From Nymphaea colorata (lineage: Eukaryota; Streptophyta; Magnoliopsida; Nymphaeales; Nymphaeaceae): a stretch of 64,000 bases of DNA. Location of the stretch: contig NW_022204890.1 of assembly GCF_008831285.2 (NCBI RefSeq), forward strand, positions 1-64,000. Direction: 5' to 3'. The notes beneath the pieces were generated by a model that ran no database searches, was not told where the DNA came from, and saw nothing but the letters and a program-made list of their open reading frames with translations. The stretch's first letter is position 1. Every line of letters begins with the position of its first letter. This document shows, in pieces, positions 221 to 39,158 of this stretch. The position numbers were made by a program, and so were the translations under genes.

Positions 221-1960
221 ATGATAATTAAAAAGCACGTATTTATCTACATTTTCATCCTTGCTGCTCTCCTGAGCAGCTCATCAGCTCGCGATTTTTC
301 CCTCAGCCTCTGGAAGAACTACCATCTCAACCAGCCACTCCTAGTCCTGTCGCACTCCAACAGTCCCGCCTTCATCACCTTCCACCATCGGTTGCAAAAG
401 GAGTGGAATGCAGATTACCACATCGCCGACGAAATTACTTACATGAAGTTCAATAAAAATGAAGAATCGCTGGAGGTAGTTGGCAGTGGAGACAGTTTGT
501 ATGTGAAGGGACTTCGAGAGGGATAATTGCTTTCTCTTTCGCTCGTAGATCCCTAAAAGTATGAAATTATCATCAAAAAAGCTGGAACAATTGTCTATAG
601 AAGCATCAGTTTTGCCTCAGATGTTGCTGTGAATGGATTTGATGAACTTGTATATCGTCTCAAGGGATCGGATTTCGGCTCAAGCTTCCAACAATAAAAA
701 GAAAAAGCTTTGCTTTCGAGTGAAAAATAGCTTCAGGAGCTGTTTACCGTTTATAAGATCAATGAAAGCTATAGTTCCTTTGGTAGATCGATGCTTTCCA
801 AGACATTCTCTCAACTCTGTGTATAATAACACAACTAACTTACTTTCATCGGCATATGTTACAATATTCATGAGGGAAAACGCCACTCGCCTTACTTTAA
901 GATCGATATTCGCTATTCCGCCCTCATCATCGATCGTCTCTTCCCAGTATACCCGAAAACTGCTCTATTTTTGTTTGAGGAGTTGGTGGGCTTGCTGTAG
1001 GACCAAATCTTCTATTCTGATGTTGCCTTTGTTGAAATTCCAGAGCATATATCGATTATCAGAGGCTTCGTGGCAGCCTTGAAGGGAGGAAGCTACCCAG
1101 AGACCTAACTGGCGGGAAGAGTAAAGCAACTGCTGAACGGACTGATGAACCAGATGCTTCTTTCTGAGGTGAACACCCTCGAGGAAGAAATCAACTACAG
1201 GTAAAACAAGAAGATGCATCCCACTCTGATCAAGATGGTGAGTCTCAAATGGCAATCCCATAGTCGCAAAAATGCCCTCTCTTCCATCTACGAGGAATCC
1301 TTCACTCCTGATTACTTCTACAACCACGCCAACCAACATATAGACAGCTGCGTGTCCAAAGTAGCTTGGCTGACTGCAGCCACTGCTGAGTTCGTTTTAC
1401 TCATCAAAACAACAGGGAACCAGGATGACTTCGATGCTCTTTAGCAATCCACCTCCCTCTTTAAGATACTGCAGCAAGTCTCAGGAGGAGACAACCATGC
1501 CAAACAGGGAAGATATTACTCCATCAATTCCGCAGAAGGAGTCAGAGTCTACGCATAGCAGATCGGTTATGAATCGTTCCTGCCCTACATTTATGAGCTG
1601 ACCAATATTTTCCCTTAATAATTTTTGAAGAATGTGACTACTTCTTTCGGACTTTCCTCTCTCAACCTAAACCACGATAAATTTTCCTCTAAGTTCTAAT
1701 ACAGGGGCAACGTTCACCTCTACTTCAATTACAAGATTCTCTTTTAGTCTAGGCGTAGACTATAATCCTCCAAAAACCAAAGAGCTCTCGCAAATATCCA
1801 AGATCTCATCTTAAAAGTCCGTTAAAAAATAACCTCTTTTTGGTCGGCAGGCAAGCTCTTCACATCATGGAAGATCACAGGTGAAGGGATCCGTTAGCGT
1901 GAGGGCTTTCCTTGCTGGCTCTGCTATTAATGGGTGAGAAAAGATGATATATATGTATGA
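221..1960 (+). CDS. Secreted orphan protein next to the telomere
   Basis: A single frame of 579 codons ends in TGA and uses many internal TAA/TAG as Glu. The N-terminus (MIIKKHVFIYIF.. to about residue 23) is a clear signal peptide, so the product enters the secretory pathway. The rest is a mixed alpha/beta-looking globular sequence with scattered basic and acidic stretches; I recognise no family. An ATAATATT box lies just before the ATG. The last ~30 codons are uncertain: a 23-nt GT-AG segment near 1882 would instead give a short hydrophobic tail. It is transcribed away from the telomere and converges with the next gene, overlapping its reading frame at the 3' end. Confidence 0.7.
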
Positions 1961-2614
1961 TATCTATGGATGTATGAAGGAAAGTGCAAAAACATCAGTC
2001 CTAAATGACGGCCATATGAACAACCGTTTTTTCTGGTTCATTTGTCTAGTCCAGCAATTTGACCTAGGCTAGGGGACAATGGGTGCCATGTCTCTTATCA
2101 TCTTGAGTTTTTGTTCGGTTTAGAGAATGAATTTGCTGAACTTGTTGGCGCGAAGCTACCGTCTATGGCTGATATCCTCGATATGCTACATAAAAAAAAA
2201 TTACCTGCAAGTAGTCCTCGTAATCGACGCGACAGACAGAGCAATAGTTTTTCTTGCGGCCGTGCTTGGCTACCATCTGAGTTACTTTGAAAAAAAGTTA
2301 GAATCATTTTTATCAAATGATGAAAGGAGTGTTACGATGGTGTTGGTGCCTTCGGATTCCAATTTGTGTCGATGCGTGCTGAGAAGTTTGCGATCATTTT
2401 CCGTATAGTAATACTTGATTAAAACTTGCATACCTGTTCTTCCTGGAGTATGAAGCAAGGTGTGTAATGCTTGTGATCGTTGTTCACCATGGGCATGGCT
2501 TTTTGAAAGGTGTTGTATAGGCTGAGTGAGAGAGATGAACGTGTTGTGCTTGGGACAGAACCTAAGCTTGATCTTCTTGCGGTAGTGGCAGTCCGCATTC
2601 TTCATCGGTTCCAT
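1865..2614 (-). CDS. DBF4-type zinc-finger protein
   Basis: Two GT-AG introns (about 59 nt, and 19 nt at 2186-2204) join three exons. Across the 19-nt intron the protein reads YCSVCRVDYEDYL then HIEDISHRR, a CCHH DBF4-type zinc finger (C-x2-C, then H-x5-H) followed by a typical basic tail. This finger is the C-terminal module of Dbf4, the regulatory subunit of Cdc7 kinase, and of some other proteins, so a role in replication initiation is an inference. The N-terminal part contains a Cys/His-rich stretch with no recognised domain. The only TGA in frame lies inside the end of the upstream gene, so the 3' end may really be nearer 2000 with another intron or an indel. Confidence 0.55.
2186..2204 (-). 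other. 19-nt intron in the DBF4-type gene
   Basis: On the minus strand this is GTAA..TGTAG with a T9 run. Removing it rejoins the two halves of the CCHH zinc finger; leaving it in shifts the frame. Confidence 0.8.
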
Positions 2615-2817
2615 CTAAAGAATGTGGTTTAGGCACCAGCCAGAGGTGCACAGCTAGCTTTTTAGCTTCTTTCCCATCTAATTATATGAATTATAACCAC
2701 CCTTCACTTTTTTGCTCCCACCACATTATACATTATACTCCAACACTCCCATTCACGACAATATCAACCCCACAAAAAAAGATAGAGACTCACATCGCAT
2801 CCATCAAGAGAGCAGGA

Positions 2818-3037
2818 ATGGCCCAACAAGATCCGAAGCTACAGGATGGAATGGGGGTATGGCTTCAACGATTCATTTGGAGCTGAAATTTCCTAGGTTT
2901 GATCGGGAAGGATGATCTTGGAGTAAATGTTGGCAATATTGAGGTTTTAGCGTGGTGCTCTTGGAGAAGGATTTGGATTTGCTGAGGGGATAATCGAAAC
3001 GATGTCGTTGGGATATATTGTGTGGCAGAGATATTGA
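2818..3037 (+). CDS. Small Gly-rich protein, partly resolved
   Basis: Three short stretches in different plus-strand frames read like one small protein: MAQQDPKLQDG, then YGFNDSFGAEIS, then IGKDDLGVNVGNIE, and finally EGFGFAEGIIETMSLGYIV ending in QRY and TGA. The glycine-rich, moderately hydrophobic ending could be a membrane helix. I could not settle the exon joins; a G5 run near 2854 and possible micro-introns both lie at the frame changes. The 250 bp after the TGA look intergenic. I recognise no family. Confidence 0.35.
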
Positions 3038-3289
3038 TCTTTAAACAATTTGAATTAACCGATGCAAAAACGGCAGATATTCTTTAATGGAGCCATTTAT
3101 AAGAAAAAAACCGAGACAATTGTCTAAGCTAGCTTTATTCAGATCGTAACAGTGGGATTGGGTTACTTTTAGAAACACTCATAAAGAATCTGGTGTATTG
3201 GCACATTTTTATTTGATATTAACAGCATGTAAATTCTGACTAATTACTTTCTATTATCTATCGCTAATATTACTAAAAATAAAAATCAG

Positions 3290-6200
3290 TCACTGTGGGT
3301 GCAGCGAACGTTCAATCGTATTGTATAAGGAAGCTGCACTGTAGCTCAATTTTCCCTTTGTCATGCCACTCAGCTCGTACAGACTCACCAGCGCCTATTA
3401 TAACTCTTACAATGAGAGACACCGAGAGAGCAAGCCGAGCTATTGGGCCTCACCCAGCACGCCCACAGTAAGCACGTCGATGAAGCGGTGAGAGTAGATC
3501 TAGAGGAACTTGCTCCACAGGTGTTGCACGGTGGCGGCAGTCAGCTTTTTCAGAGGACATTTGCTCATCAGCATGAGGCGTAACAGATAGATGGGATCGT
3601 CTATGTCAGCGAAAATATACCCAGGCTGAGAGCAGCTTCAAATGCGTCGTTGATGTTTCCCTCTTACACCAAGGTGAGGATCTTAAGCCATTCCTTGCCC
3701 AAATCTACGTCTTCGGTTTAAATGGCGCATTATACTAGCTAGTGTCTTTTTCACTACGGGACTTAACGCTCTCTACGATCTTCCGTGGTGGGTTTTTAAT
3801 CAATTGCTGGTATTATATCTCCGTCTATGGTGCAGGCTGCCGCGCCGGTCTGGTTTCCCTCACCTCTTTGACCGTTGGCAATTTGTGACCCTTAGGAAGT
3901 GATTCCTCGTATTCACTCATCACGATTTACTATTATATTTATTTTTCGTCCGACTTGTTAGGACGGAGAGAACTAAACCTGTCCTTGTCCTTGGGATTGA
4001 GGGTGAACTGGATTTACTACCTCGATTTATTGCGACTTAGCAGGCTTTCAGTGAAATTGAGGGAATTGGTGACCGGTTCCGGGTGGACTGCTGGTGAAGG
4101 GACAGGAGGAGGTGGTGATTGATGAGTTGGTGGCTCGATGTGGAGAATGGATTCGGTATTTCTTGTGCGCTTGGCTACTTTTTGAAGAATTTTTCCATGA
4201 TGCTCTGCCTCGTCTTCTTCTCCGCTAGCTTGTCCCTTATCTACTGGATGTCAGTTCTGCCATTGTCGATAGATTGGTTGGGAGTTGTTTCCTCGATCAT
4301 GTGCAAGTCGCTTTAGTTTAGCACTCCGTTAGGTTTTAGCTCACCTGCGAAAGGTTATACTCCTCCACAAGGTCTCCTATTTCTTCCTGAGAAATAATCT
4401 TGCTCTTTTTGGCCTATGGGACTGGCTCAGGTTGGGGCGGAGGAGGTGGTGGGGGCGACTTTTTGACAGGTTATACGACTTTGTTGGGAGCTAGGGGCAT
4501 TTGAAGCTCTTCTTTCGTTGGCCTTTGCTTGATTGGCGGATTCATCTATAAGCTGTCCTTATCGCTGTCATTCTTGGAACCCTTTCTGGAAGGCTTTGAT
4601 TGACTTTTTTCAGTGTAGTAGTTGATTTTCATTCCTTTTTCTTCATCCATAAGGTTTCTTCATGCTTCATCAGCTCGTTTGCCTCTTCTTCGCTGATTCC
4701 CACATCGAGCAAGTTCCCAGTGTTCCTCCTCTTCACCTAAGGCTTAGCTGCCTCCTCGGCTGCTCCATCACCATCTGGTCGCCTCGTCCACTTACATCTG
4801 AAACTCATCCATCTCAGCTTCAGCTGACTTTTTCCGCTTTGCCTAACGCACCTATAGAGGAGGGGATTTGCTCCGGGATTTCTTCTAAAGATTGGGAATA
4901 GAGAATCTGTCGATATTTTTATTCTCTTCAGCGCCCTTTTTTATGTATTCTCTCAGCTATTAGAATGCTCCTTATGGGATTTTCCAGGACTGCGACTGGG
5001 TGGCGATAGCTAATTTTTGCCATGAGAGCCTCCGCCGACTCCTGACCCTCTCTTCACATAGTTTTTGGCTCGATTATTGGCTCCCCATCCTCCTTTGACC
5101 AGTTTCTCTAGATCTTCCTTCATGAAGGTCAGCTATTTTTCTAGCTTGTTCTGCTCATCTTTGGACCTTGATCTTTACTTGATCTTGCTGTTTCTCTTCT
5201 CTTCCAGCGACTATGTAAGCAACTCATTACAGCTAGCCCGTTTTTGGGTGGAGAAAGCACTTACTATCCTTTCCATGCCCTTAGAGCCCTTGAAGCGGCA
5301 AGCTGAACTTGAATGATGCGGTTTCGTGAAGCTGGACCAAGGCATCTTGTACGTTCAAGTCGATCAGCTTATCCTTCTCTGCAGAAGGAAGCAAACTCCC
5401 AATCTTTCTATTATCTTGCAGACATGGACTTTGCACTGTATCGTGAAATTTTTACCATATAGCTGTTTAAATTGCCTGAATTTGGCATCTCTCGAGTCCC
5501 ATTGATCACAGACATGATCTTGGCCAAGAAAGTGACTACTTTACCATCCAAAAAAGCGAGTCCTTTCACTTCGAGCATGCTGCTTACAGCTTGAAATAAT
5601 TCATGATATTCGCAGTTGATTTTGAGAATCACAACTAAGAGTTAAGGAGCAAGACGGGTCAGCATCTATTGGTTGCTGATGCGTCTGCAATTGTTGATAA
5701 GTTCGTTGAGACAAGCAGCTGCAGTAGCTTGAGACCCTTATCCACGCCTGACTTAAGAATAGCTAAGTTATCAAAGCTTACATATCAAAGGAGATATATG
5801 ATTGAGTAGATTGATTCTGTATCCTGGTTTCCCAAGCAGTAGGTAGAAAGGTCCAGCAATGCTCTCGCACATGCTTGCTGGACTGTTGCGCTCCTGTCGG
5901 CGAAATACCCATGCAGGACCTCTACCATTCTGAATACTGTCTTGAGGATGGAAGGCGGTTTATCGAGAGGGTCTATGAGTTGCGTTTTGAAGATGTTGGC
6001 GAGGATGGAGATGACCAAGATTTCGTGTTCCTTGGTGGCGCTGTTGGGACTGGGCTTCAGCGTCTTCAAGATGGCGATGTAGTTGCGCAGGTGGTCAGGT
6101 TCTCGGTAGTTATCCACTAATTTTCTCAGCTATGCTATGCCCTTCGTGATGGATGCTTTACGATTTATCTGGTCTCTGCGGATTGGAGTTTCTGAAGAGC

Positions 6201-6292
6201 GATGACGAATTTTTGTTTGACTTGTGCGAGGAGGGAGCGTTGCTGGAGATGTGGAGGGCGCTGAGGTTGTCCAGACTGTCCTCGATGTTCAT
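3290..6292 (-). CDS. HEAT/TOG-repeat protein, TORTIFOLIA1-like
   Basis: Several micro-introns (20 nt at 6142-6161, 5436-5455 and 3601-3620; 23 nt at 5374-5396) must be removed. The protein then begins with an alpha-solenoid: a short N-terminal helix pair (KFVIALQKLQSAETR, IGIAELRKLVDNY), then HEAT-like helices through about residue 330. A charged coiled-coil linker with proline-rich parts follows. The C-terminus contains EEGNINDAFEAALS then DDPIYLLRLMLM, the conserved region seen at the end of plant TORTIFOLIA1/SPIRAL2 microtubule proteins. Those proteins bind the microtubule lattice and minus ends, so I infer a cortical or ciliary microtubule role. Start and the first intron (about 34 or 56 nt) are less certain. 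Total length is about 950 aa. Confidence 0.7.
3601..3620 (-). other. 20-nt intron in the TOG-repeat gene
   Basis: GTATAT..CATAG on the minus strand. Its removal joins AALSL to DDPIYLLRL in the conserved C-terminal domain. Confidence 0.8.
5374..5396 (-). other. 23-nt intron in the TOG-repeat gene
   Basis: GTTTGC..AGAAG on the minus strand. Removal joins CKIIERLG to DKLIDLNVQDALV in a HEAT helix. Confidence 0.7.
5436..5455 (-). other. 20-nt intron in the TOG-repeat gene
   Basis: GTAAAA..TACAG on the minus strand, 62 bp upstream of the 23-nt intron. Both must be removed to keep the HEAT region in frame. Confidence 0.75.
6142..6161 (-). other. 20-nt intron in the TOG-repeat gene
   Basis: GTAAAG..CGAAG on the minus strand. 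Removal joins QSAETREI to GIAELRKLVDN. Confidence 0.8.
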
Positions 6293-6519
6293 TATAGTTT
6301 GTTTTTGAAATATAATTGCAACTTAATCATCAAAATTACGATCATTTTGATGGTTTGATTTATTGGGGATGAAGGTAAACAGCAAAGAAAACTTATGTGA
6401 TTTATATACATTCAATTCTTCTGTTAACTTGGCCTTTCTAACTTTTTTGATAAAGTTACTAAAATTATCTCGAATTAATAGTTTTTTGACAAACATGCTT
6501 GAATAATAAAAAATTATTC

Positions 6520-7199
6520 TCATATCTACAATATATAAAACATATTCAGGCGCCCACCTTTGCCCATTTCTATTGGCGTTTGCGTCCCTGCCTTCCATTC
6601 CCATTTTTATCTTCTATTTTCTTTGTTATGTCTCGCCCCCCGCTTGGCCTATACGGTTGTGGAGCTTTCGAATGTTTTCTCAGAGCCAAAGGACCGTAAG
6701 GAGTTACTTTCCTTTAGAAGTTCAATCGTGTTTCGTTTTTATGGGTTTTTCCTTGTGGCGTCGTTGATGGATTTCATCTTGGCCCATGATGTTGTTGCTG
6801 GAGTTTGCGTTATCTCTGGGGAAAAGTTCAGTCTCTTTTTTTCGTCTTTGACAACTCTAAAAAAAAGACCTTTTGGTTGGTGTTTTGGACTAAATCGAGC
6901 CAATGTCTGTCGTAGATCTGGTGAGTTGGATGCTCTTATTTTTTCTTACCTGTTTTCTTGTTGCAAATTGGCGACCTGAGCCAGGCATTCTTAATTTCAT
7001 TCTGATGTTCATTATATGCGAGTCTGAGGGCTGCCAATTGCGCATTAAGTTCATTTTGCTTTCTATTTTTGGAAAGGAGTTGTTCCTTAAGTGCCTTTAG
7101 TTTCACGTTAAAGGTCCAATTGGCGTTGCAGTACTCCGTCTAGAGCGCCGCCAGCTTCATCTATGCCATTTTAATGCGGATCTCCTCAGCTGTTTCCAT
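6520..7199 (-). CDS. Coiled-coil protein with basic tail
   Basis: It starts with METAEEIRIKMAEMKLA and runs about 80 residues as a likely coiled coil rich in Leu, Lys, Glu and Gln. After a frame change near 6960 (micro-intron or indel not pinned down) it continues as a long basic, Ser/Thr-rich tail containing SWAKMKSINDATRKNPQKRN and ending with TGA at 6520. No known domain is visible. An ATAATATAA box sits about 10 nt upstream of the ATG. The coiled coil plus disordered basic tail suggests a cytoskeletal or scaffold protein, but this is only a guess. Confidence 0.55.
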
Positions 7200-7434
7200 C
7201 TTTTAGTTATATTATTCTAAGTAAAAGTGCTGATCTACGGGTTCAAATCAAACATTCTAACCGTTTACTATATCACACCACAGAAGTGAAGCATGGACCG
7301 GAATTGGTAACTTAAAGAAGGTTTGGACTTGTTGATTATTTTCAGACCAGCGACGTAACTTTTCAAATGTGTAATATGATATGATAATTTTGGAAAAAAA
7401 GAATTTCACAGGTGTAATTAGCGCCATAAAAATA

Positions 7435-8506
7435 TCATTTTGCGAATTTGGTCTCGTTCTCAGCGATGGGATGCACGCCCAATTTTGGCTGCCATTTCGC
7501 ACCCTCAGCTCCCAAATGCCAATCATTACCCAAACCGTAAGCTACCATGTCTCCCTTGGACTCACCTTGGCTGTGCAAATAGGGATGCCTCCGTAGTTGA
7601 GAGATTTGATCTTGTTCTTTGCCTCGTAGTCCCAGAAGTGCATGCCACCGTCAGAGCCTGCAGTCATGAACCACCTATCGTTGATTGGATTGAAACTGAC
7701 TGAGTTTATAGGGTAAAGGATCGTGTTTCCGCCCTATTCCTGCTTGTTGCTCTTGAATGTTATGACCGATTTCTATATAGGGAGAGGAATTACGGGTGCG
7801 AATATACCATTCACGTTTTTGTTGATATTCGAAAGATTGCCTTCCGTCGAAACTGCAATCCAAACATCGTGCACTTCTGGTTGATGGCTACCGATTGGAT
7901 CTGCGAGAACTTCCCGAGGTCTGTAGACTCGACGACCGACCTTGTATTGGCATTGTTGATATCGACTATCAAGATCCTTTCGTTGGCAGTTCCGGCGACC
8001 AGCATGGGGAATTGGAAGTCGCTTGTAAATACCTTGTTCTATGCGTTGAAGGTCATGACTGGGTTTGGATTTCCCAACTGCCAGAACTGGATGTTGTTTT
8101 CGTAGCCACTGGAGACGATGGTGTTCATGCCAGGCACGAAGTGAAGTGAGCTGATGGCGGCGCTATGCCTGCCGACGTCTGCAGCTTGGGAACTGCCGAT
8201 GTCGAAGACCTTGATGCTGCCATCCATGAGACCGACGTAGATCTGCGTGCTTTGGTCGTTCCATGCGCACTTGAGGGCGGGCTGCTGGAAGCTGTAGCTC
8301 ATCTTCTGGATGATAGCGCTACCGTAGCCGGTATTAGCCACTTCAAATATGCGTAATTCTCCATTCCAGGCAGTGGAGGCGAAGACTTGCGGGATGGTGG
8401 GCGCCCACGAGATGTTGGAGAATGAATCACTGAAGGCGGCGACGGAGGCATCGGGCTTGATGTCGCTTTTGTAGTCGTCGTTGACTGAGGTGCCTACTCC
8501 AAGCAT
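7435..8506 (-). CDS. RAE1: RAE1/Gle2 mRNA export factor (WD40)
   Basis: The product is a WD40 beta-propeller that aligns along its length with RAE1/Gle2, a nuclear-pore mRNA export and spindle factor. Visible signatures are FSNISWAPTIPQVFASTAW (blade 1), YVGLMDGSIKVFDI, GYENNIQFW, LVAGTANERILIVDI, SVSFNPINDRWFMTAGSDGG and FWDYEAKNK, and the family ending AYGLGNDWHLGAEG. A TAG falls in TFNA-E-NKVF, where RAE1 proteins have Glu. The frame breaks twice: near 7871 (GGATTGCAG) and near 7545 (CCAAGGGAG). At each point adding one G restores the alignment with no gap, so I read these as missing bases rather than introns. An ATTATATTAT box is at 8511-8520. Length is about 357 aa, normal for RAE1. Confidence 0.85.
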
Positions 8507-8510
8507 TTTG

Positions 8511-8520
8511 ATTATATTAT
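8511..8520 (-). promoter_or_regulatory. ATAATATAAT start-site box of RAE1
   Basis: A palindromic-looking A/T box 5-15 nt before the RAE1 ATG, matching boxes at many other starts in the window. The position implies a very short 5' UTR. Confidence 0.5.
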
Positions 8521-8705
8521 GAGCGAGGTAATTCTCAAATATATCTTAAATACCAGATTATCGATAGATTTGATTAGTCAATAAACGCCTAAAATATGAA
8601 CTATTTATACCCACATTCGCATGAGAAGGTAGAAATGTTGGTGATGGGTATACCTATCGTGCCTTGAGACTGTTGGGATAGATTTGGTTTGATTAATATA
8701 TTTTA

Positions 8706-24034: not shown

Positions 24035-26131
24035 ATGGAGGAGGAAGATGACTATATTGATGAGATGTGCATCAAGAGTGAAAAGTTAAAATATGTCAAA
24101 AAATAGCTGCTCAAAAATGAGTTGCTTCATTCATCTATTGGCGCATTGAAATTCAAAGACCATCGGAATAATCCTGGCTCTGGAACAGCCACGATCATCT
24201 CTCCAAATTGTATCCTGACAGTTGCTCATAATATCTATAACAAATGGGATAAAAAAACATATAGAGATTTCAAGTTTTATCTGGCTGCCCATGGAAAAAG
24301 TGAGACCTATTATTAGGTTTAATCCATAAAATATCCTTCTTAGTTTGAGACCTGCACGACCAAATAAAAATTAAAATATGATTTTGCACTTATGAAGCTA
24401 AAAAAACCAATAAATTTCCCCTATTTTCTCAAATTGGAAGTTCTCTGTAAGGAGTGTATCAAAGATAGAGAATAATAGCTAGAATTGGCAATCTATGGCT
24501 ATCCCTAAGGAGCAAAACCATAGACTAAATAGCTCTTGTAGGATCTATAAGGAGTGCAAATCTCCGAATACTTCAAAAACGAAGAATAGGAAGAGAAATA
24601 TCAGTTTGGACTCAAAAAGAAAGATAGCATAACTGAGATAGATTATAACTAGTTTATCAAGTATAGAATATCTACAGAAAGTGGACAGAGTGGCTGTCCA
24701 ATCGTCATGAACAATAGCATAATCGGCATACACACTAGTGGCACCAAAGAATTCAATGTCGGAAGATTAATAACCCAAGATTTGGTGGATACCCTAACCA
24801 CATGGGCATAAGAAATGGATGCTTAGCTTTTTACCATGCATGATCATGAGATTTTTGTCAGGCACGAAGGGTCAAAGTAGATCTGTGCAGCATTGAAATA
24901 CTAAGCATGGAAAGAAGCCAAAATATCCCATATTCTTATGCATAATCTGAAGCAATCCAAATAGTATTATTGCCTGATGTACAAATCTACAGTTTTATTT
25001 CCTTAGGATCGGCTAGAAAAGATAGAAGAATAGCCTCTTTTCTCAGCATAGCATATCTAACTAATCATACTTAAGGACAGCGCCAGGCTTTTCTTCTATC
25101 GTATCATCGTGAACTGGCATCAAAACATGAATCTCAGCAACTTCAGATAAAGAGAAGACATTCCCAATTAGTTCAAAGAGAAAAATGCATATCTGAAAAA
25201 AGTCTTCACAATTTATTCCAGGCATTACTACTATTAAATGAACCAATGTCTAAGAGCTAAGGACTTTACCACGAAGCCGTAGCCAATTCATATGGCGGTT
25301 GAGCTTTTGAATGCTTCTCGCTACCTTCCAATATAGAGATGCCAGACTGCCTTTAGGGGAGTTTCCAAAGCTTTTAAAAATACTTTAAAAAAAGGATAGA
25401 TCGTATAGTTTCCTGAATTCTTTTCTGGATCCACTGATATTGAAGAAGCTTACAAGCATACCCTGAAGACATAAAAAGGAACAATATTCTACATCCCCTC
25501 CTCTACGTATCGATATCTGGGTAATGATTATGCTGATGGAAAGATGGTGGTCCTCTTCATGCCATTCTAAAAATTCTATGTCGAAGAAAATCATTTTAAT
25601 AATGAAATTTACGAGACTGATCTTCGTCAGATACCAGGGCCAGTCACTTACTTGAAGCGGATTATTATTTGGATATGCGAAAATCCATAAAAATACAAAA
25701 GATAATATTAAAAATGGATGTAGGGGTAAAATGTATAAATTATACATTTATCTTCTGTGGAATTTTTCAATTAGAAATGGTTTTAGGCCTATGGATGGAT
25801 CTTGAAGTGGAAGGAAATAGAGGTAAGAATAGTTATATTTTAAAAAATGTAAGAAAAAAGTGGAATAGAAACTTTCTTTAGACTTTCAAGAAGCAAGATA
25901 GAATAGACTCCTAATGTAGACTTTATTTCTTTGCTGTCTCATCTTCAAAAGCACAATAACTCTACATTTGTATTATTATTTACAAAGCATCTCAAAGAAA
26001 GAGGAGAACTTGCAATCAAATAGGGGGTTTTTCAGTATCTCAGGACAACATAATAGCTTGAATACGTCTAGTTATTCGTATAATTTTGCGATATCTAATC
26101 CTCAGAATCCAATGAGTCGGACAAAGAATGA
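24035..26131 (+). CDS. Trypsin-like protease fused to a degenerate ART-fold domain (copy 1)
   Basis: A single exon of 698 codons with no frame break. Residues ~30-240 form a trypsin-like serine protease: TVAHNIY (His65), YDFALMKL (Asp116) and SGQSGCPI (Ser219), all triad residues present. No signal peptide; the N-terminus is acidic. A middle helical region (about 250-430) links to a C-terminal domain with FRGV (Arg441) and FFSGSTD (S-x-S at 464/466) and a LFMPFEKFYVEEN strand, the layout of arginine ADP-ribosyltransferases. The family's catalytic E-x-E, expected just before LFMPF, is absent (ADGKMVV instead), so the ART part is probably inactive. About 120 further acidic residues follow. It is the upstream member of a tandem paralogous pair. 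Confidence 0.75.
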
Positions 26132-26436
26132 TATTTTATTTAATATCCCAAATTATCTCTAATATTTTTCATAATTTTAATAAATAATCTTAATTTTCAG
26201 TATTTGATGTTTACTTTGAAATTCGGATTAGTTATCTTATAACAATCTCAACTTTTATATAATATTTTTTATAGTGAGAAGAATATATGATATATTTGAT
26301 TGCCAACCAAGAGATATTTTGATTTTTTCCTTATAAATAATCGTCATCTTCAAAGCAAATGCTGAAAAATATTTTGTTGATATGCATAATCTCTTCATTT
26401 ATTTCCTTTGATATTTTCACGTAATAAGTATTAATA
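26132..26436. other. Spacer between the protease-ART paralogues
   Basis: 305 bp, strongly AT-rich, no coding signal. It ends with an ATTAATA tract directly before the copy 2 ATG. Confidence 0.5.
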
Positions 26437-28608
26437 ATGTAGGAGGACTATCGGGATTAAAAGCAAGTCAACAACGATATCCTGTTTGAAGTCACTGAAG
26501 AATACATTGCAAATCTAATGCACCGATCCATCGGCGCCCTCACCTTCAGAGACCGCTGGAATAGACTTGGCAAAGGCACAGCCACCCTCATTTCCAAAGA
26601 TATCATCCTCACGGTTGCCCACAACATCTATGATAAAGAATACGGATACGAGTATAAATAGTTTAGGTTCTATCTGGCGCCGTGCAAAATCGGACAGGAG
26701 TTCTATGAAATCTAAAGCTGGAGATACATGCCAGAGTTTAAAAATTGCATAAGGAAGGATAGGATTCAGTATGACTTCGCTATCATGAAACTCAAAATCA
26801 CAAAATAACGACCAATCAGCCAAACATAGTTCTTATCCCTAGAAACTATTTGCTCAAAATGCATAAAATAAGACTTAACTTTATCCATTTTCGGCTATCC
26901 ATCTGAACAGCCTTCGTATCCTCCCAACTACTTGCCTCTTGATCCTGAATTTAAGAAATTCAGAATAAACCAGTATGGTCTGACCTGCGAAAGGAGAGTA
27001 ATGTCCATCGATTTTTCCTTGTCTAGAATCACATACTCAATGAACACCTATCCTGGACAAAGCGGTAGTGCCATCATTTGCAATAACAGGATCATCGCAG
27101 TCCATAATGCAGCTGGAAATAACAATTAACCTTTCAACATAGGAAGAATCATGACCAAAGATTTAATATAAAAGCTTACGAGTTGGTGTTAATAAATTAA
27201 AGGTTCCCTTTTCGAAGTATATGACCACCCTCATTCCAAGCTTTCCCGAGACCTAACGATAAAAGTTAGGCATGGGTAAAATAAATACAGCATATAATAC
27301 AATCTCATCAAAAAATGCACCGTTTAGGAGGTTCTAAACGACATCTTGCCGGACCCCAGGTTTTACTACTGCCTAATGGCTCAAGGAATCATCCTCAAGC
27401 CTGAAGACTTGTTTGAAACAATTGAATCCCTAGAGCTAGATACCGATTATTAAAATGTGTTATAATTCTAAATTCTGAAGGACAGCGCTAGGTTTTATCT
27501 ATTCACCACTATCTACAACCAATACAAAGACCTTCCATTAGAAATATTTTGCGGTTTAGCCGGTATTCCAGACCCATCAAATATTTAGTAATACAAGAAA
27601 TTTGTGATAAAAAATATCTGGACTTCGAATCATCAGTTCTACATGCAGATCAATAAATTTCTAAGATAAGGCATTCATTCAAAGAGAAACGATATTACAG
27701 ATGCTGATAGCATCGGGTATCTCAAGATGATTGTGTAGATCATAAAAGTATGCAATTACATTGAGAAAAATCCATACTTTTAAGTATATCGAGGAACCGG
27801 CAATTTTTTCTTTTCAAGTTTTGCCAAATAAGGAGATAACAACTAATTCCGGGCTTTCACGACTACTTCACTCCTCAAGTAAATGGCCCACAAAATGATT
27901 CGAAAAATGGGAAGTATCATGACTATAAAACATTTCACAGGAAAATTAATAAGTAGCTATGCTTCATTTCCATCAGAAAAGGAAACTTTGATCATGCCTT
28001 TCACTAAGTTCTATGTCGATTCTATAAAAAAAGATTCGAATTAGTTTGAAACAATATAACTGGTAGAATTATCGGGACCAATTAAATACTCCAACAAAAT
28101 ATTGATATGGATCGAAGATTACGAAACCTAGTTTTCTAAATAGATAGAATTCATTAAAGACAGCTATGGCTTTGAAGTGCTTTACATTCCTTCGTTTTTT
28201 ATCTTCACCAAGTGGATTGAAGAGTACGGCTGGCTCCTGAAATGGAGGGATACCCAGGTGAAAATAGTGCTAAACATCAGCATAGTCACAAAAAGAGTAA
28301 AGAGTTTTTTATAAAAAACTTTTAAAGGTTTATTTGGAAAATAAGAGTCTCTTATCTTTAATTAACTTTAGAAAAATGGAGTAAAAAAAGAGATAATCTC
28401 TGACGAAACTGAGCTCAAATTCTTAAAATGGTTTTATATGGACTGCAAATACACAAACTAAACGTTAGTCTACTGTTAAAAGCCGTAAAGATACTCACAA
28501 AAGGCAAAGGAACAGAATATTAAAGGCAATTTTACTCTCTCAACTTCGATGAAATAAATTTAGTCTTTCATTCAATTCAACGGATCAGTACTGCAAGTCA
28601 TATAGTGA
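26437..28608 (+). CDS. Trypsin-like protease fused to mono-ADP-ribosyltransferase domain (copy 2)
   Basis: A single exon of 723 codons, unbroken. Protease half: TVAHNIYD (His62), YDFAIMKL (Asp113), GQSGSAII (Ser209). Like copy 1 it lacks a signal peptide. ART half: VYRGTGN (Arg452), FRAFTTTSLL (T-x-S around 476-478) and SEKETLIMPFTKFYV, with the full E-x-E at Glu514/Glu516; this R-S-E set is the hallmark of arginine-specific mono-ADP-ribosyltransferases (ARTC-like). About 190 residues follow, helical and Lys/Glu-rich. The two halves sit on one polypeptide separated by about 230 helical residues. Role unknown: host protein modification, secretion-independent defence or stress control are all possible. 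It overlaps the convergent RPA1 gene's end by a few tens of bases. Confidence 0.8.
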
Positions 28609-31967: not shown

Positions 31968-32002
31968 GCGAGTGATATTTATTTATAATTCAAACTAATC
32001 TA

Positions 32003-35000
32003 ATGAAACTTATAAGCCTCTTTCACGTGTGGATATGCCTCTGCGGACTCCTCATCCTCTCGAACACACAGGTGAGCTTCACCGTCACTTCCTCCAGTGT
32101 TAGTCCCAACGCAGCCAGATCCACTTCCTCGCAATACAACATCCAGCTTAACGCCATCACAACCTTCAGCATTAATTTTGATGTATCGGTCACCTTTCCC
32201 GCCGCATTCACCATAACCACACTCACTGGATGCCAACTTTCAGTCAATGGAGCCGTGAGACCAGGAGCTGCATGCACCCTCACCACAGCATCCAATCTTG
32301 TAAGCTTCTCCTCCTTAGGTATCAATGCCACTGTGAACAATTTAACCTTAGTCTTTCGCACAAACACGGCACTGTATGCAGGATCATTCGTTGCAGCAAT
32401 CAGCTACTATCTGCCTGGCTCTCCCTCAACAACTTACGGGTCCAATTCCGCCCCTCTCACCATCACTAGCGCAACCATGGCCTGTTCCTTCTCGTCCAGC
32501 AACTCAACTGTTGGGGCTACTGCTAATTTTCAATTATCCTACTCTCCTTCGTCATTTGTTTCTGCCGGTTCCATTTTGCAGGTGCAATTTTCACCATGGA
32601 GTGCATACAATTTGACCAATTTTCCAGGCTTCACCTCATCGTCCGTCTGCAGCGGCTCTTGCACCATTCGATCACCCAATCAAGCCCAAGGCTTCTTTAA
32701 CTAGATTCTAACCTATAACTCTCTATATCCCGCAATATCAACCTCCAACATGACTTTATCAATAAACAACGGAAGGAATCCTGCCTCCACTCAACCAGTA
32801 ACCATCACTGCATCATTGCTTTTCTTCGTTTCCTCCTCCTCGCAACCGTCATATATGACCTGCTCGACATCCTTTGCCGCCACAACGCCAAACCAATTTA
32901 CCGGAGTATCTTTCTAGCCGCTCACAAGAACTATTTCAGACTCCAATCCAATTTCTCTAGTCCTCAACCTCACCAATCCCATTTCCTCCATCTCACTTCT
33001 AACCATTACCCACCCCAGCGATTTGTTTATCAGTTTCACTTATATAGTTACCAACCAGGCAACAGCTCCCAAGTCACACCCATTAGTCGGAATTAATGGA
33101 ATAAAGTTGGAAAGCCTCACCAACTCTACTTCGGCCTTCTACACTCTCTTTATGGTGCAGTTTGAATTCACCAATCCCCCCTATGGCAATTTCCCTATAT
33201 CTGTCGTGTTTCAAACGCTCAACCAGCCTGCTAACTCAAATTCTTCCTTCCTGATTGACACTGCAACGCTCACTTACACGTTCACACCTTCATCGATTGA
33301 TGGTGGAGTTGTCACAGCAGTGAATTCTTCGATTGGAGTCACCACCAACGTTACTCTTTCCTTTGTCACTACTAATACTCTCATTTCAGGCTCTAAGATC
33401 ATCGTTAATTTGCCTGTTGAGTTCTCCTCCACTGGATTGAGCTCCTGCAGTTGTCTAAACCTCTCCTCTACTTGCACGCTCTTCAATACAACTTCGTTCT
33501 TCATCAACGTCAACGCTGCAGTGGTGCTTAAGGGAACAACCATCAATGTGGCAATGAACAATATCGTGAATCCAGCTACCACCACACCCACTTCTTCATT
33601 CACCCTCACCACTTTCTACTACAACACATCCACTCCCACCGATGTGATGTCCGGCGGTGCCACGTTTACTGCTACTCCAGTCAATCTTTTTTCAGGATCA
33701 ACATCCCCAGCATCTTTCACAGTTGCCGCCAGCACTACCTACACAATCAACTTCCAAAATACCAATCCACTGCCAGCTGGATCTTCAGTCGTAGTCACCT
33801 TTCCAAGTGAATTTGCAAACGCTGTTAGCCCAAATTTGCTCTCTTTTCGGATTGGCAATGTGTCGCAAAGCGGATGCACCATGAATATTTTATCAACCAT
33901 GAAGTTTTAATTCACTTCTTGCATTACCTCCAGGGCTAATGCTCAGAGCAGCTTCTCCATAAGCTTGGCAAACATCATAAATCCTACATCAACAAAACCT
34001 ACAAGCTCATTAACTGTCTAAACTTATTTCAATACCTTTTTAATGGAGTCAATGGCTGCTGGGCTAGGAGTCACCATGACAACTCAAACTGACTTACTCG
34101 GCTCAGCTATTGCAGTTAACAATTCTAACGTTAACGCTCTGACCACTTATACGTTTTCATTGAATTTTTCACAAAGCTACTCCTTTGGCTCAAGGATCAT
34201 TGTCACCTTCCCCGATCTAATTACCTTTAATAATGGTGTTTCTTGTTCAAGTGGAACTTCAGGAGTCGTTACTTTCTGCACAAAATCAACAAACACTGTT
34301 CTTTTGGTGATACTTAATGCTGGCAGTGGAGCCGGTAGCTCTTTGCCATCCTCTGTTACTTGGACCATAAACAATATCCAAAACGCATGGTACGCGCTCA
34401 CCTCCACGTTCACCTTCGATACCACCACAAACGATACAACATACTACTACATGGAGAGAGGAAGCGCAACGGTCACCATGCAGCCCATCAGCCTTAACAT
34501 GGCGTACACGCCTGACAACCAGCTAGTCCTGCTCTCACCATCGGTTCTTAATATCAATGTAGCAAATACTTTCCCGGTGAGTGCTACTAACTCCTCCTTA
34601 TTAAGACTGGTCATCACTGTTCCTAGCGAACTCACTCTCGCCAATACTTCATGCACAACGTCTGTTTCTGGTGCTATATGTACGCCAGGAAGCGGAAACA
34701 GAATAACAATCACATAGATGGGAAGTTTTAGCAGCAGTATCAACGTGACCTTCAGTGCAACAGCAAGCTACTTTACTACCAGTTCAGCCTTCAATACCGT
34801 TCTTTCTTACGACAGTATCAGCATTGCTTCCAATTCAGTATTTACTGTGAATAGCTATTGCCAAAATCCCTGCAAAGGTTGCAATAACAACATAACACAG
34901 TGCACCTCTTGCCTGCCTATTCAGTATACATCCTTAATCAACTATTTTTCATTTAATAATAGTTGCTTAGCTTCATGCCCAGCAACATATTTTGTAGCAA

Positions 35001-38000
35001 CTAATAGCAGTGTCTGCCAGCAGTGCAATTCTTCAGCTTGTCTAAATTGCATCACAACTGCGAATACATGCACTTCATGCTCTGATCCCCTCTTTCTATC
35101 AGGAAATACATGCGTCGTTACATGCCCTAACACATTCTATGGAACCAATAACACATGCGTAGCGTGTATAAACCAATGCTTTAACTGCACCACTGCCACT
35201 CATTGCATATCATGTGTATCACCATTCAGTCTCAACCCGAATAACACTTGCTTAATGACATGCCCATCAGGATTTGCTTCCGTGGCTGCTGTATGCACTT
35301 TGTGCACAAACAATTGCCTAACTTGCTCGATGGCCACAAGTAATTGCACATCTTGCGTGAACAACTATTTCCTATCGAATTCAACTTGCGTCCTCACCTG
35401 TCCCAATACCTTCTTCGGAAATAATAGCTTGTGCATAACCTGCATCAACCAGTGTTTCAATTGCACCAATGCCACATACTGTCTCTCTTGCATCTCTTCA
35501 TACTCTCTAAACCCCGACCAGACCTGCCAAACCACATGTCCTACTGGTTATGTATCAGTAGCAGGGGTTTGCACTCTCTGCACATCAAACTGCAAGACCT
35601 GCGTTAATTCTCCCAGCAATTGCACATCGTGTGTTAGTCCTTTCTATCTTTCCGGATCTAGTTGCGTTCAGACATGCCCAGATACCTTCTTCGGGAATAA
35701 CAGTTTGTGCATAAATTGCATCAACCAGTGCCGCAATTGTACAAATTCAACGTATTGTCTTTCCTGCATTAATGCTTACTCTCTCAATCCTGACAATACC
35801 TGTGGTCTTACTTGTCCCACCGGATACGTATCTGTATCTTCAATTTGCACTCTTTGTACGTCTAATTGTCGAACTTGTTCAATTTCCACAAGTAATTGCA
35901 CTTCCTGTGTGGCATCCTATTTCCTCTCTGGGTCAAGCTGCGTCCAGACATGCCCAAACACCTTCTTCGGAAACAACAGTCTATGCATCACTTGCATCAA
36001 TCAATGCTTTAACTGCACGAATGCGACCTACTGTCTCTCCTGCATTAGTTCTTATTCGCTCAATCCTGACCGCACCTGCCAATCCACATGTCCTGCTGGG
36101 TACGTTTCTGTCGACTCGGTATGCACACTTTGCACATCAAATTGCCTAACTTGTACTGGAACTCCAAGCGGATGCACTTCATGTGCGAGTCCCTACTTCC
36201 TATCAGGATCGACTTGCACCCAAACATGTCCAAATACTTACTTTGGAAATAACACTATATGCGTTGTTTGCATCAACCAGTGCTATAATTGCACAAGCGC
36301 CACTTATTGCCTCTCTTGCATAAGCTCTTTTTCCTTGAACCCAGATCAAACATGCAAATCCACTTGCCCTCCGGGATATGTTTCAGTTAATTCGGTCTGC
36401 TCCACATGCACATCCAATTGTTTCACCTGCAACAGCGTTCCAAGCAATTGCACTTCATGTTCTAGTCCTTACTTCTTAACTGCGAATACATGCGTCCAGA
36501 CATGTCCGAATACTTATTACGGTAACAATACCTTGTGTGTGGTCTGCATAAACCAATGCTACAACTGCACCAGTTCCACTTATTGCTTATCCTGCATTTC
36601 GCCTTATACTTTGAATCCTGACCATACATGCCAGATCAATTGTCCATCTGGGTATGTTTCAGTCTCGCTTGTCTGTACTTTATGCACGTCTCGTTGCCTT
36701 ACCTGCAGCGGAACACCTTCCAATTGCACCAGTTGTGGAGTTGGATACATATTCTACAATAATACCTGCATCCTTGCATGTCCTGATGGTCAATATCAGG
36801 ACACTATCAATAAGCAATGCTTAAACTGTGTTCCTCCTTGCAAATATTGCCTCACATCCACTCAATGCTCATCATGCGTTGCCAACTTTTCCCTATATAA
36901 TGGCACTCGATGCCTATCAACTTGCCCTGCAGGCACTTATACTTACGTTTCCACATGCTAAAGTTGCAGCATTTAGTGCCAGACTTGCTACAATACTGCA
37001 ACCAATTGCACTTCTTGCTTCGCTAGCACTTACTTTATCTGAATGCTTGCTATTCCACCTGTCCGGAGCTGACCTATCCGTACCAGGGAAAATGCACCAC
37101 TTGTGTAGAGCCTTGTGCAACTTGTCTCAACAGTGCCTATCTGTGCTCCAGCTGTATTAACGGAACACTATTACTGAATGCCAGCTGTGTGGTATCATGC
37201 CCCCCTAGTGGCTATGTGTAGTTAAACGGAACCTGTCTAGGCTGTCCAACTAATTGCATTAGTTGTAAATCGCCAATCGCATGCAATACCTGCAGCAGTG
37301 GATACTATCTCTACCAGGGAGGATGCGTGGCCACCTGTCCAAGCACCAGTCCCATCATTGTGAGCCAGACATGCAATAGCTGCAACTCTCAATGCGCCAC
37401 CTGCTAGGGTAGTCCTGACAGCTGCATAACTTGCACTTTATACTACTTCAAATACTCATACACTTGCGTCAACTCTTGCCCTATAAGCTACTACTCTAAT
37501 ATCATGACATATACATGCGAGAGTGGCCTATCTACCAAGATCGTCTTCTTCCCAGTGTTGATCACTTACATTATCATTATCTCCGTTGTGATAATCTTTA
37601 AGGTGTTTGCAAGGAGCACCTCTTTCCCTACTGTGGTTACTTCCCTTTCAGGATGGATGTAGATTGTAATCTCTGCATACTTGCTGTCCCTGCTCTCCCA
37701 GACATACCTTGAAGTTGGACTGAACTATGCTCTTCCTCAAGCTTTGATTGCAATTTCCTTTGTATTTACTATGGTCATCAACATTGTCCACTTTAGAGTC
37801 AACTACCAGAGACTTGCCGAGGATGAATACGTGAAGAAATGGCAGAATATCAATGTGAACTATACATATTTCGTCATCTTTAGATATTTATCACTATTTA
37901 CTCACTCCAAAATATTCAGGATGATCTACAGTAAGCTTCTAGACTCCATACATTTATCTTTGATTGCTCACAAGTTCAGAAACGTCTTCACTATTTCGAC

Positions 38001-39158
38001 TGTGATTACTGTTGCATTCCTCTTCCTATCTTAAGTTCCTCTACTAATCGCGGCTTTCTACCTTTCCTATAACAAGCTATTGAAAGACCAAGTGTTCTAT
38101 ACATCCATTTAGTGCCTCTTGGTTGTCATCTTCTCCATTATCATTTCGCTAATCGATATCCATAAGGCTGAGGATTACTTCGAAGATACACAGTTCATGA
38201 TGACTAAGCGATACCTCGAGAAAGTCAACAACGATTCTTTGAACAAGCTGGAGGATTAGTATAGGGCAGGGATGAAGGATCTTTGGATGGAGAGAAATTC
38301 GTTGGAACCAGTGGCGGCAAGTTTATCTTCTCAAGAAGAGACCCCCACTCTATGAATGAAATTATGCTGGAAGAGGGAAGCGCCGCCACCGATGCCTTTG
38401 ATACTATGGCCAAACCCCCAGGCAAGCTTCTATTTTAAGAGTAGAAGTCAAACAGTGAAGATCCTTTCAAATCTGAGCTTTCTCCACGCTCGCCTCGCTC
38501 CATCAAGTCAAAAGCCTAATCCTCCCGAAGATAGAAAGCTCCCAAGAGCCAAATCAACATCTTCGAACCCATCCAATAGTAAGAAGCAGAGTATTATGAA
38601 CTTCTAAAGTACGATGAGTAAGACTTCAAGACTGCTGTCAAGATATAAAAGTAAAACGCTGAGAATGAATCAGAATAGTAGGGACAGTTGGAGATAGAAA
38701 GGAAGTAATATTTTGGAGCAAACTAAAATGCAGTTGACAATAGCGATAACCAGTCAATGCTATAGTATAGATAGAGAAGATAACAGTGGAATCAAATAAT
38801 CTAGCACCGCCAAAAATTGGCAAACCAGATATTCAACACCATCGATACTAAATAACTCTACAAGGAACTTTAGAAGATCGAAGAACCGATCAATGAGGAT
38901 GAGTATGATGAGCAATAATATGATAAAAACGCACAGTTCAAACAGAGAAGAATAGGGGCAACAAGTCGAGCAAGAGATCTTCCCATAGAAGAAGCCAACG
39001 TTGAGAGATAGAAAGAGAAAAGACGGAGAAGAAGAAAAGGAGGAAAGCGAGGCAACAAGTAGCTCTAGGAGATATATCTTCAAAGGTTGGCTGAGAAGGT
39101 AGACCCCAAGAAGAAGAACATCTACGCATCATCAAAATCATTCAAATATGAATTTTGA
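32003..39158 (+). CDS. Giant Cys-repeat surface membrane protein
   Basis: Signal peptide MKLISLFHVWICLCGLLIL. Residues ~25-950 are Ser/Thr/Asn-rich beta-type repeats full of N-x-S/T sequons, with repeated motifs such as IIVNLPVEF, VVVTFPSEF and IIVTFPDLI, suggesting tandem Ig-like folds. Residues ~950-1750 are Cys-rich furin/growth-factor-receptor-like repeats (C-x2-C patterns, CPxGY, CTSC), six of them in an exact 276-nt period. From about 37540 come several transmembrane helices (VFFPVLITYIIIISVVII; RNVFTISTVITVAFLFLS), then a charged Lys/Glu cytoplasmic tail to TGA at 39156. Two one-base losses are inferred, at 37040 (ATCTGAATG) and near 38303 (TTGGAACC). The product would be about 2,385 aa. 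Ciliates have large families of such surface proteins; ligand unknown. Confidence 0.75.
35165..36820 (+). repeat. Six exact 276-nt coding tandem repeats
   Basis: The CINQCxNCT motif recurs at 35165, 35441, 35717, 35993, 36269 and 36545, each exactly 276 nt apart (92 aa). Each unit carries about 16 cysteines (INQC, LSC, NPD-TC, CPTGYVS, TLCTSNC, NCTSC, CPNTFFGNN). The copies differ at many third positions but never in length. Partial, more diverged units flank the array on both sides. Confidence 0.9.

Follow-up and report, generated by a model that had tools for sequence, protein, structure and literature searches.

Two adjacent genes, here called copy 1 and copy 2, lie on the forward strand of the window (the whole 64,000-nucleotide stretch of contig NW_022204890.1 that was analysed), and their features are collected in Table 1. 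The earlier note took them for single-frame paralogues of 698 and 723 amino acids, and this description holds; both frames, each of about 700 codons, are open under code 6 and contain no TGA, and their products are identical at 207 of 636 positions (33%, E 5e-93). The protease is the best-conserved part between the two copies, with 101 of 227 residues identical (44.5%), compared with 48 of 186 (25.8%) in the ADP-ribosyltransferase (ART) domain and 36 of 155 in the tail.

Table 1. Positions in the window of the two genes and their parts
Feature	Positions	Strand	Residues and basis
Copy 1	24035..26131	+	698 aa, one open frame under code 6
Copy 1 V8/S1-type serine protease domain	24131..24847	+	H65, D116, S219, pocket-type H233; Pfam PF00089 41.2 bits, above cut-off; alignment of six proteases
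Copy 1 middle domain, possibly ubiquitin-like (beta-grasp)	24848..25069	+	alignment; weak hhalign match to pre-Hint pieces of C717/C366; no Pfam match
Copy 1 ART domain	25070..25648	+	E-x-E lost (M-V-V); Pfam PF01129 19.8 bits, below cut-off; ART alignment
Copy 1 receiver-like tail	25649..26128	+	acidic residues lost; Response_reg E 0.1, far below cut-off; tail alignments
Hydrophobic 26-codon in-frame extension of copy 2, probably spacer	26359..26436	+	78% A+T; hydropathy control 2/23
Copy 2	26437..28608	+	723 aa, code 6 (749 aa if the upstream in-frame ATG at 26359 is used)
Copy 2 V8/S1-type serine protease domain	26515..27228	+	H62, D113, S209, pocket-type H223; Pfam just below cut-offs; alignment of six proteases; PDB 1p3c profile match
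Copy 2 middle domain, possibly ubiquitin-like	27229..27474	+	alignment; weak hhalign match; no Pfam match
Copy 2 ART domain	27475..28089	+	R452, T476-T-S478, E514-K-E516; Pfam PF01129 3.8e-13, 49.7 bits; ART alignment
Copy 2 receiver-like tail, degenerate	28090..28605	+	hhalign match to relatives' tails

Domains of the two proteins

Pfam and alignments place a trypsin-like protease ahead of an ART domain in each protein, as had been claimed. That two-part architecture is borne out for these two domains but is incomplete, since each protein also has a small middle domain and a receiver-like tail. The Pfam Trypsin model (PF00089, cut-off 20.6 bits) is passed by copy 1 and just missed by copy 2 (20.3 bits), which also falls below the cut-off of Trypsin_2 (PF13365; 24.4 bits, cut-off 27.6). 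An ordered His-Asp-Ser triad (H65/D116/S219 in copy 1, H62/D113/S209 in copy 2) and a G-x-S-G motif are present in both copies in the alignment, in agreement with the complete triad previously read in each. When a profile of both copies was compared with the PDB, it matched 1p3c at 3e-5 over the whole sequence and at 0.0086 in the best stretch, and the VHN of copy 1 and IHT of copy 2 align with GVHNAG of 1p3c. The S1-pocket His (His213 in glutamyl endopeptidases) is aligned in five of the six rows of the six-protease alignment, and in C368 it lies two columns off. By these features the window protease is V8/glutamyl-endopeptidase-like, and that of copy 1 looks intact. The likeness to V8-like S1 peptidases such as 1p3c comprises the G-x-S-G, the H-D-S triad and a VH(N/T) motif on the S1-pocket side; the window proteases differ in being joined to other domains and probably not secreted, and their specificity for Glu is a prediction.

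The ART domain of copy 2 lies above the Pfam cut-off of 22.3 bits (PF01129) and that of copy 1 below it. The residues reported earlier were found again in both: R452, T-x-S at 476-478 (T476-T-S478) and E514-x-E516 (E514-K-E516) in copy 2, and the Arg (R441) and S-x-S (S464-G-S) in copy 1, which has M-V-V at the place of the lost E-x-E. In the PDB comparison the profile of both copies also matched ecto-ADP-ribosyltransferase 2 (1gxy), at 0.006. Copy 2 resembles the ARTC proteins (PF01129), of which 1gxy is an example, in its Pfam score and in its order of R, S/T-x-S and E-x-E; it differs in having Thr for the first Ser of S-T-S, copy 1 differs in the absence of E-x-E, and both are fused to a protease and a tail. 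An NCBIfam scan matched copy 2 to XopAI at 18.6 bits, far below the cut-off of 300, and a PADLOC scan of the window proteins gave no match. The AF2 model of the whole protein, built from the two-row alignment, had a mean pLDDT of 32, with no usable fold for the S1 and ART domains.

The middle domain is possibly ubiquitin-like (UBL), on weak sequence similarity. By hhalign the middle domains of the window pair match the pieces that precede the Hint domain in two related genes, C717 and C366 (described below), at a probability of 1.5 over 32 columns, with a score that none of 60 shuffles reached. They match these pieces only; the post-Hint and the first UBL-like pieces are at chance, as is a pooled UBL comparison (48 of 100 shuffles reach its score). 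The UBL-like pieces of C717 and C366, which were labelled by eye, are also at chance against each other (29/60 and 38/60 shuffles reach the score), and no UBL-family Pfam match within E 10 was found in the window copies, C717 or C366.

Both window tails align by hhalign with those of the related genes C717, C571 and C294 and of the database protein P0004 (probability 97.5, E 6e-12, 115 columns). Their reading as receiver-like comes from an hhalign comparison of these four relatives' tails with eight receiver domains of E. coli K-12 (probability 54, P 1.3e-4, score reached by 0 of 100 column shuffles). This match drops when the window tails are added (probability 4.9) or taken alone (1.2), and single receivers give at most 5.4. 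Eight negative controls made of single sequences, unequal in depth to the tail alignment, were left out of this reading. Pfam gave no receiver match on the isolated tails of C717, C571, C294 and copy 2, and only Response_reg at E 0.1 on that of copy 1. Of the acidic pair and phospho-Asp of receivers, DD and an SDM are present in the tails of C717, C571 and C294; copy 2 has E-D without the Asp at the SDM place, and copy 1 has neither.

Related genes on other ciliate contigs

A search of genome contigs with copy 2 as the query found six further protease genes on other ciliate contigs, with LRR, SPRY-like or UBL-like/MYND pieces behind the protease, some of them in neighbouring frames. A weak protease-range match was seen at C327, and LRR-range matches at C178 and C637. 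Five ART genes were found besides the window pair: C717, C571, C294, C305 and C366. A receiver-like tail follows the ART in all five, aligned in C717, C571, C294 and C305 (first part only) and seen by eye in C366. C717 carries a Hint domain upstream of its ART (Pfam 25.5 bits, 1.3e-5, below the cut-off of 35.8), and a PDB search with C717 reached an intein at E 0.79 only; the Hint domain of C366 matches the PDB intein 7cfv at 3.7e-5.

C366 starts with a degenerate relative of the protease, followed by Hint, ART and tail, in two frames that would have to be joined. The protease part was recognised by hhalign (P 6.6e-5; score 38.3, against 24.6 for the best of 100 shuffles); a Pfam scan of C366 gave no protease, and C366 is not among the matches listed in the genome search with copy 2. 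Its ART and tail match the window pair at probability 92 (E 6.5e-7). The degenerate protease of C366 led us to reject the window pair as the sole joining of protease and ART. Protease homology is seen in only three of the seven ART genes, in one of them in degenerate form.

Outside these contigs, searches of protein databases with copy 2 alone and with both copies found no relative at E <= 0.001, and viral-contig scans and one further genome-contig scan found none. A database search with five ART domains drew 759 candidates, six of which (P0004-P0009) reached E <= 0.01; one of the six is a bacterial 'ADP-ribosyltransferase' and the others are fragments or unnamed.

The partners of the protease bring to mind an immune-type sensor, a system of recognition inside the cell, in which the C-terminal part would sense a target and the protease would be the output, the window ART then being a sensor or decoy rather than an enzyme. 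Between the copies the protease has indeed diverged less than the C-terminal half; LRRs follow it at C130 and C515 and a SPRY-like piece at C519; diverged tandem copies occur at C386 and C515; and the ART active site has suffered losses in copy 1, C366 and C571. This explanation is nevertheless unlikely, as the E-x-E kept in copy 2, C305 and C294 would be needless for a pure decoy and the SPRY match at C519 is below the Pfam cut-off.

Start sites and cellular location

An ATG at 26359, which the earlier note does not mention, is in frame with copy 2 and would add 26 hydrophobic residues. Together with the resemblance of the protease to secreted bacterial glutamyl endopeptidases, it could suggest that the protease is simply secreted for digestion or defence and that the ART is a passenger; a signal peptide would then begin copy 2 at 26359, and the two enzymes would act extracellularly or in food vacuoles. 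We consider this quite unlikely. The extension is 78% A+T, like two measured spacers (78% and 80%), as against 54% in the 164 bases from the inner start at 26437, and of 23 reading-frame stretches from three spacer regions 2 equal or exceed its hydrophobicity; for these two reasons it is probably spacer and a signal peptide on copy 2 is unlikely. In the pairwise alignment the inner start of copy 2 coincides with the beginning of copy 1, for which no upstream in-frame ATG was found. That neither protein has a signal peptide, as had been proposed, is therefore probable.

The relatives C130 and C519 have starts of the MGN type (MGNC and MGNS), not the signal type, and C294 begins MGQSSSS; in C366 an MGNQCC lies at an inner Met, with earlier in-frame Mets before it. 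Under the myristoylation rule these four would fit a lipid-anchored intracellular protein. Both window copies, C515, C368 and C717 have no MG start.

A third explanation, that these are decaying tandem duplicates whose fusion is a neutral by-product of duplication and which are both heading to loss, is very unlikely, for although copy 1 has lost its E-x-E, both tails their acidic residues, and identity is low, the two long frames lack TGA, both triads are intact and protease identity is 44.5%.

A protease ahead of an ART cassette, compared with known systems

The interpretation that we favour, tentatively and at slightly under an even chance, assigns this tandem pair to a modular gene family of ciliates in which a protease controls or releases an ART when triggered. 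The domain order, the residues, the paralogy and the relatives with other partners are direct observations. Two kits would have been combined, with an intracellular V8-like serine protease as the module at the N-terminus and, at the C-terminus, a (UBL-like)-ART-(receiver-like) cassette. Upon a trigger the protease, presumably in the cytosol, would cleave its own chain or a partner after acidic residues, and the ART would thereby be controlled or released, perhaps with regulation by the tail. Copy 2 would combine proteolysis with ADP-ribosylation (or NAD hydrolysis) in one enzyme. Copy 1 would act as a protease whose dead ART is retained as a binding or regulatory part, and it could process copy 2 or shared substrates. 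It might be the non-catalytic partner or decoy suggested in the earlier note; its protease looks intact.

A bolder extension, which is doubtful, is an NLR-like, mix-and-match intracellular protease-receptor system in ciliates. The V8-like protease would be its constant signalling part, with a membrane-anchor-type start in some members, while sensing or output would fall to parts that vary: LRR, SPRY-like, UBL-like/MYND or UBL-like-(Hint)-ART-receiver. In the window pair a regulated protease would have replaced the self-splicing Hint as the switch of a ubiquitin-like cassette for ADP-ribosylation, with an active copy beside an ART-dead partner.

If the favoured interpretation is correct, it would link the intein-like UBL/ADP-ribosylation loci of ciliates with protease-based intracellular switching, now separate threads, and the processing device ahead of the ART cassette, Hint or V8 protease, would be exchangeable. 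The role of a ciliate protease-LRR/SPRY/ART family, be it in immunity, self-recognition, cell death or turnover, would be open to genetic testing, and an ART-dead copy beside one with complete ART residues offers a natural test of enzyme versus pseudoenzyme.

Among known systems, prokaryotic conflict systems bring trypsin-like peptidases, ARTs and receiver domains together in one network (PMC8195603), similar in kind to the protease, ART and receiver-like tail of the window proteins. As described there they are built on Death-like/EAD adaptors and NTPases, none of which was seen in Pfam, NCBIfam and PADLOC scans of the window proteins. FAM111A and FAM111B are trypsin-2 proteases, with UBLs in vertebrate FAM111A (PMC9798293); they resemble the window proteins in a trypsin-like protease, intracellular in FAM111 and presumably so in the window copies, and in UBL domains, which are only possible in the window copies. 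In the account cited the FAM111 UBLs precede the protease and no ART is named, whereas the window protease is N-terminal.

The closest parallel lies in Tetrahymena, and the earlier statement that no described family has this domain order is only half right, as the UBL-BIL-UBL locus BUBL1 is a described neighbour. BUBL1 combines UBLs with an intein-like domain (PMC8616854; PMC9200820), and a title cited in the former names the ubiquitin-like domain of a Tetrahymena polyubiquitin locus 'ADP-ribosylation associated'. The window copies differ in having a V8-like serine protease first, and a Pfam search of both found no Hint/BIL domain; the receiver-like tail after their ART may be a further difference. 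The likeness, within ciliates, is carried by C717 and C366, where a Hint/intein-like domain stands ahead of the ART cassette, flanked by pieces judged UBL-like by eye, as it stands with UBLs in BUBL1. The reading that suits the window proteins best is a BUBL-like cassette in which a V8-type protease occupies the place of the relatives' self-processing Hint and may be its functional counterpart.

The tandem protease-ART pair

Under the ciliate code (TAA and TAG read as Gln), both genes are open reading frames (see table), and 207 of 636 positions are identical between them (BLASTP E = 5e-93), which bears out the earlier note's claim of two adjacent paralogs of these lengths. Its second claim, a trypsin-like protease joined to an ADP-ribosyltransferase (ART) domain, also holds: copy 1 matches PF00089 (41.2 bits; cut-off 20.6), copy 2 matches PF01129 (49.7 bits; cut-off 22.3), and triads are present in both (H65/D116/S219 in copy 1 and H62/D113/S209 in copy 2). 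The complementary matches lie under the Pfam cut-offs (copy 1 ART, 19.8 bits; copy 2 Trypsin, 20.3 bits, and Trypsin_2, 24.4 versus 27.6). The ART residues that had been named (Arg452, the T-x-S at 476-478 and Glu514-x-Glu516 of copy 2; the Arg and S-x-S of copy 1) are in place. The observation is real, but its description was incomplete: division by conserved blocks gives a protease, a middle piece of ∼80 aa, an ART domain and a tail of ∼170 aa in both copies (44.5, 33.3, 25.8 and 23.2% identical between them, respectively), and the middle piece and tail had been missed.

By profile, the solved structure nearest to the protease is that of the glutamyl endopeptidase 1p3c (best stretch 0.0086, whole sequence 3e-5); the alignment spans G-x-S-G and the V-x-V-H motif after it. 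In V8-type enzymes the His of this motif binds the P1 Glu. This His occupies the same column in five of six aligned protease rows (alignment A6); that of contig C368 is two columns off.

A secreted enzyme is one of the main rival explanations, and a longer copy 2 frame from ATG 26359 does add 26 hydrophobic residues. The A+T content of this extension (78%) resembles that of two measured spacers (78 and 80%) and differs from that of the 164 bases from 26437 (54%), and equal or greater hydrophobicity occurs in 2 of 23 stretches drawn from three spacer regions. Spacer-like composition and this hydropathy control thus favor the inner ATG (26437) and a putatively intracellular protein; the absence of a signal peptide claimed in the earlier note is probable.

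Features of the window contig and of contigs with relatives (L numbers are stretches of the contigs; positions are within the window or stretch)
Feature	Location	Position	Strand	Remarks
Contig C386	window at its start			71,399 bases; CCCCAA repeats at one end, GGGGTT at the other
(CCCCAA)n telomere	window start	1-75
Copy 1	window	24035-26131	+	open frame, 698 aa
Copy 2	window	26437-28608	+	open frame, 723 aa
UBL-like pieces (by eye), Hint, another such piece, ART, tail	C717:4000-13000 (L023)	1975-4662	+	896-aa frame
Two overlapping frames	C366:15500-23500 (L032)	954-4519	+	degenerate protease frame (954-2795), then Hint-ART frame (2759-4519)
Protease and leucine-rich repeats (LRR)	C130:11500-17150 (L018)	2702-4486	+	one frame; MGNC start; LRR_4 9.1e-10
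Three tandem protease genes, LRR in neighboring frames	C515:11000-20900 (L019)	about 2445-8656	-
Protease, coiled-coil-like stretch (by eye), SPRY-like end	C519:3000-12500 (L020)	3403-4998	+	one frame; MGNS start
Protease frame, then frame with UBL-like piece and MYND	C368:24000-30337 (L022)	3120-4706	-

Relatives and their contigs

Protease homology is present in three of the seven ART genes found (both window copies and, in degenerate form, C366), and an intein-like Hint domain in two (C717 and C366). C305, C294 and C571 carry an ART followed by the tail. With the window proteins as tblastn queries (E ≤ 0.01), the surrounding 7-9 kb of each of these three, and of C717, yielded no protease. 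The C717 Hint matches Intein_splicing at 1.3e-5 (25.5 bits, under the cut-off of 35.8; PDB intein 0.79) and its ART scores 29.8 bits. In the first C366 frame, MGNQCC starts at an inner Met that other in-frame Mets precede, and the degenerate protease has lost the triad His and Asp and carries Cys instead of Ser. Pfam does not detect this protease; its hhalign score is 38.3 (P = 6.6e-5; probability 64), compared with 24.6 for the highest of 100 shuffles. The second frame has a Hint (PDB intein 7cfv 3.7e-5; Pfam 0.014), a UBL-like piece (by eye), an ART (33.5 bits) that lacks E-x-E and, by eye, a tail; its ART-tail aligns with the window pair over 115 columns (probability 92; E = 6.5e-7). C366 was not among the copy 2 genome-search matches, so that search could have missed further degenerate proteases, C717 included.

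Read from the alignments, copy 2, C305 and C294 keep E-x-E, C717 and C571 keep only its last E, and copy 1 and C366 have neither E; the YRG-type block of C571 has apparently lost its Arg. Since losses are spread across copy 1, C366, C717 and C571, they seem to have occurred more than once. Decaying duplicates are a further main rival. Among the proteins found, only copy 2 combines an intact protease triad with both R and E-x-E. The C294 ART gene has close matches in the database fragments P0004-P0006, so this subfamily exists in other samples too. The database protein P0007 is similar to the ART of C717.

Genome searches for protease relatives gave at least 13 matches to copy 2 and at least 20 to the C130 protein. 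One C515 gene was scanned (LRR_8 6.6e-9) and the other two were seen by tblastn only; frames there are broken (introns or decay). The C519 SPRY-like end (Pfam 0.0075) and the C368 UBL-like piece (best Pfam 0.042) are under cut-off, and the C368 MYND finger (3.3e-5) is over it. Neither C515 nor C368 begins with MG. LRR-range matches to the C130 protein also occur at C637:45553-46569 (-) and C178:9794-10291 (-), and a weak protease-range match at C327:28558-28833 (+).

With telomere repeats at both ends, the window contig has the appearance of an entire macronuclear-type chromosome of a ciliate. Of nine further contigs examined at their ends, seven have telomere-type repeats at one or both (C130, which ends in such a repeat, C294, C305, C366, C368, C515 and C571); C717 shows just a short CCCAACCC start, and the C519 ends have no terminal repeats. 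In this 407.8-Mb, 783-contig assembly, all 18 reported receiver (PF00072) matches come from seven large contigs numbered between C2 and C12, with coordinates as high as 33 Mb. The ciliate contigs therefore seem to accompany or contaminate the assembly of another organism. Cysteine-rich frames at window 31976-38352 (+), with Pfam matches to Giardia VSP and furin-like repeats, are possibly surface proteins.

Middle piece and tail

The middle piece may be a ubiquitin-like (UBL) domain; this reading is suggestive and is favored by its place immediately ahead of the ART, where C717 and C366 have a UBL-like piece (by eye). Compared with the second (pre-Hint) pieces of those proteins, it scores 15.5 over 32 columns (probability 1.5), which none of 60 shuffles reached; against their other pieces it is at chance level. 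The C717 and C366 UBL-like pieces are not above chance against each other, and in a pooled comparison the score was reached by 48 of 100 shuffles.

The block that opens the tail, (I/L)-x-W-(I/V)-(D/E)-D in type, occurs in C717, C571, C294 and C305 too; copy 1 has I-W-I-C-E there. Profiles of both window tails match those of C717, C571, C294 and P0004 over 115 columns (probability 97.5; E = 6e-12). The latter four align with eight E. coli K-12 receiver domains over 99 columns (probability 54; P = 1.3e-4), with the acidic pair and phospho-Asp in register, a score that none of 100 column-shuffled receiver alignments reached. Against this, single receivers give a probability of at most about 5.3, adding the window tails to the four lowers the match with the eight receivers to a probability of 4.9 (1.2 for the window tails alone), and Pfam reports no receiver in the C717, C571 and C294 tails (copy 1 tail, E = 0.1). 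We therefore call the tail receiver-like, and degenerate in the window copies.

Possible mechanism and known systems

Most likely, the N-terminal V8-like protease would occupy the place of Hint in the relatives. On a signal it would cut in cis or between both tandem products, which would free the middle/ART/tail part or cleave its target; the tail would act in regulation, as a degenerate platform of the receiver type. Copy 1 would combine a protease with a binding part shaped like an ART. An immune-type sensor with the ART as bait is the remaining main rival.

Judged by title and opening of the abstract, no paper listed in the literature searches describes a protease-ART fusion in ciliates; some lists gave the best part of the matches (15 of 2,402, 12 of 94, 20 of 36 and 10 of 11), and few subscription papers were covered. 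A swapped processing module and a protease family with changing partners, as these sequences suggest, would be unexpected to ciliate or ADP-ribosylation specialists. The comparison with known systems also covered PMC2362128, PMC3482391, PMC8195603 and PMC9798293. PMC9200820 agrees with PMC8616854 on the BUBL1 locus (UBL-BIL-UBL) of Tetrahymena. Of the relatives, C717 and C366 look like loci of this type; the window pair is kept apart from them because it has no Hint.
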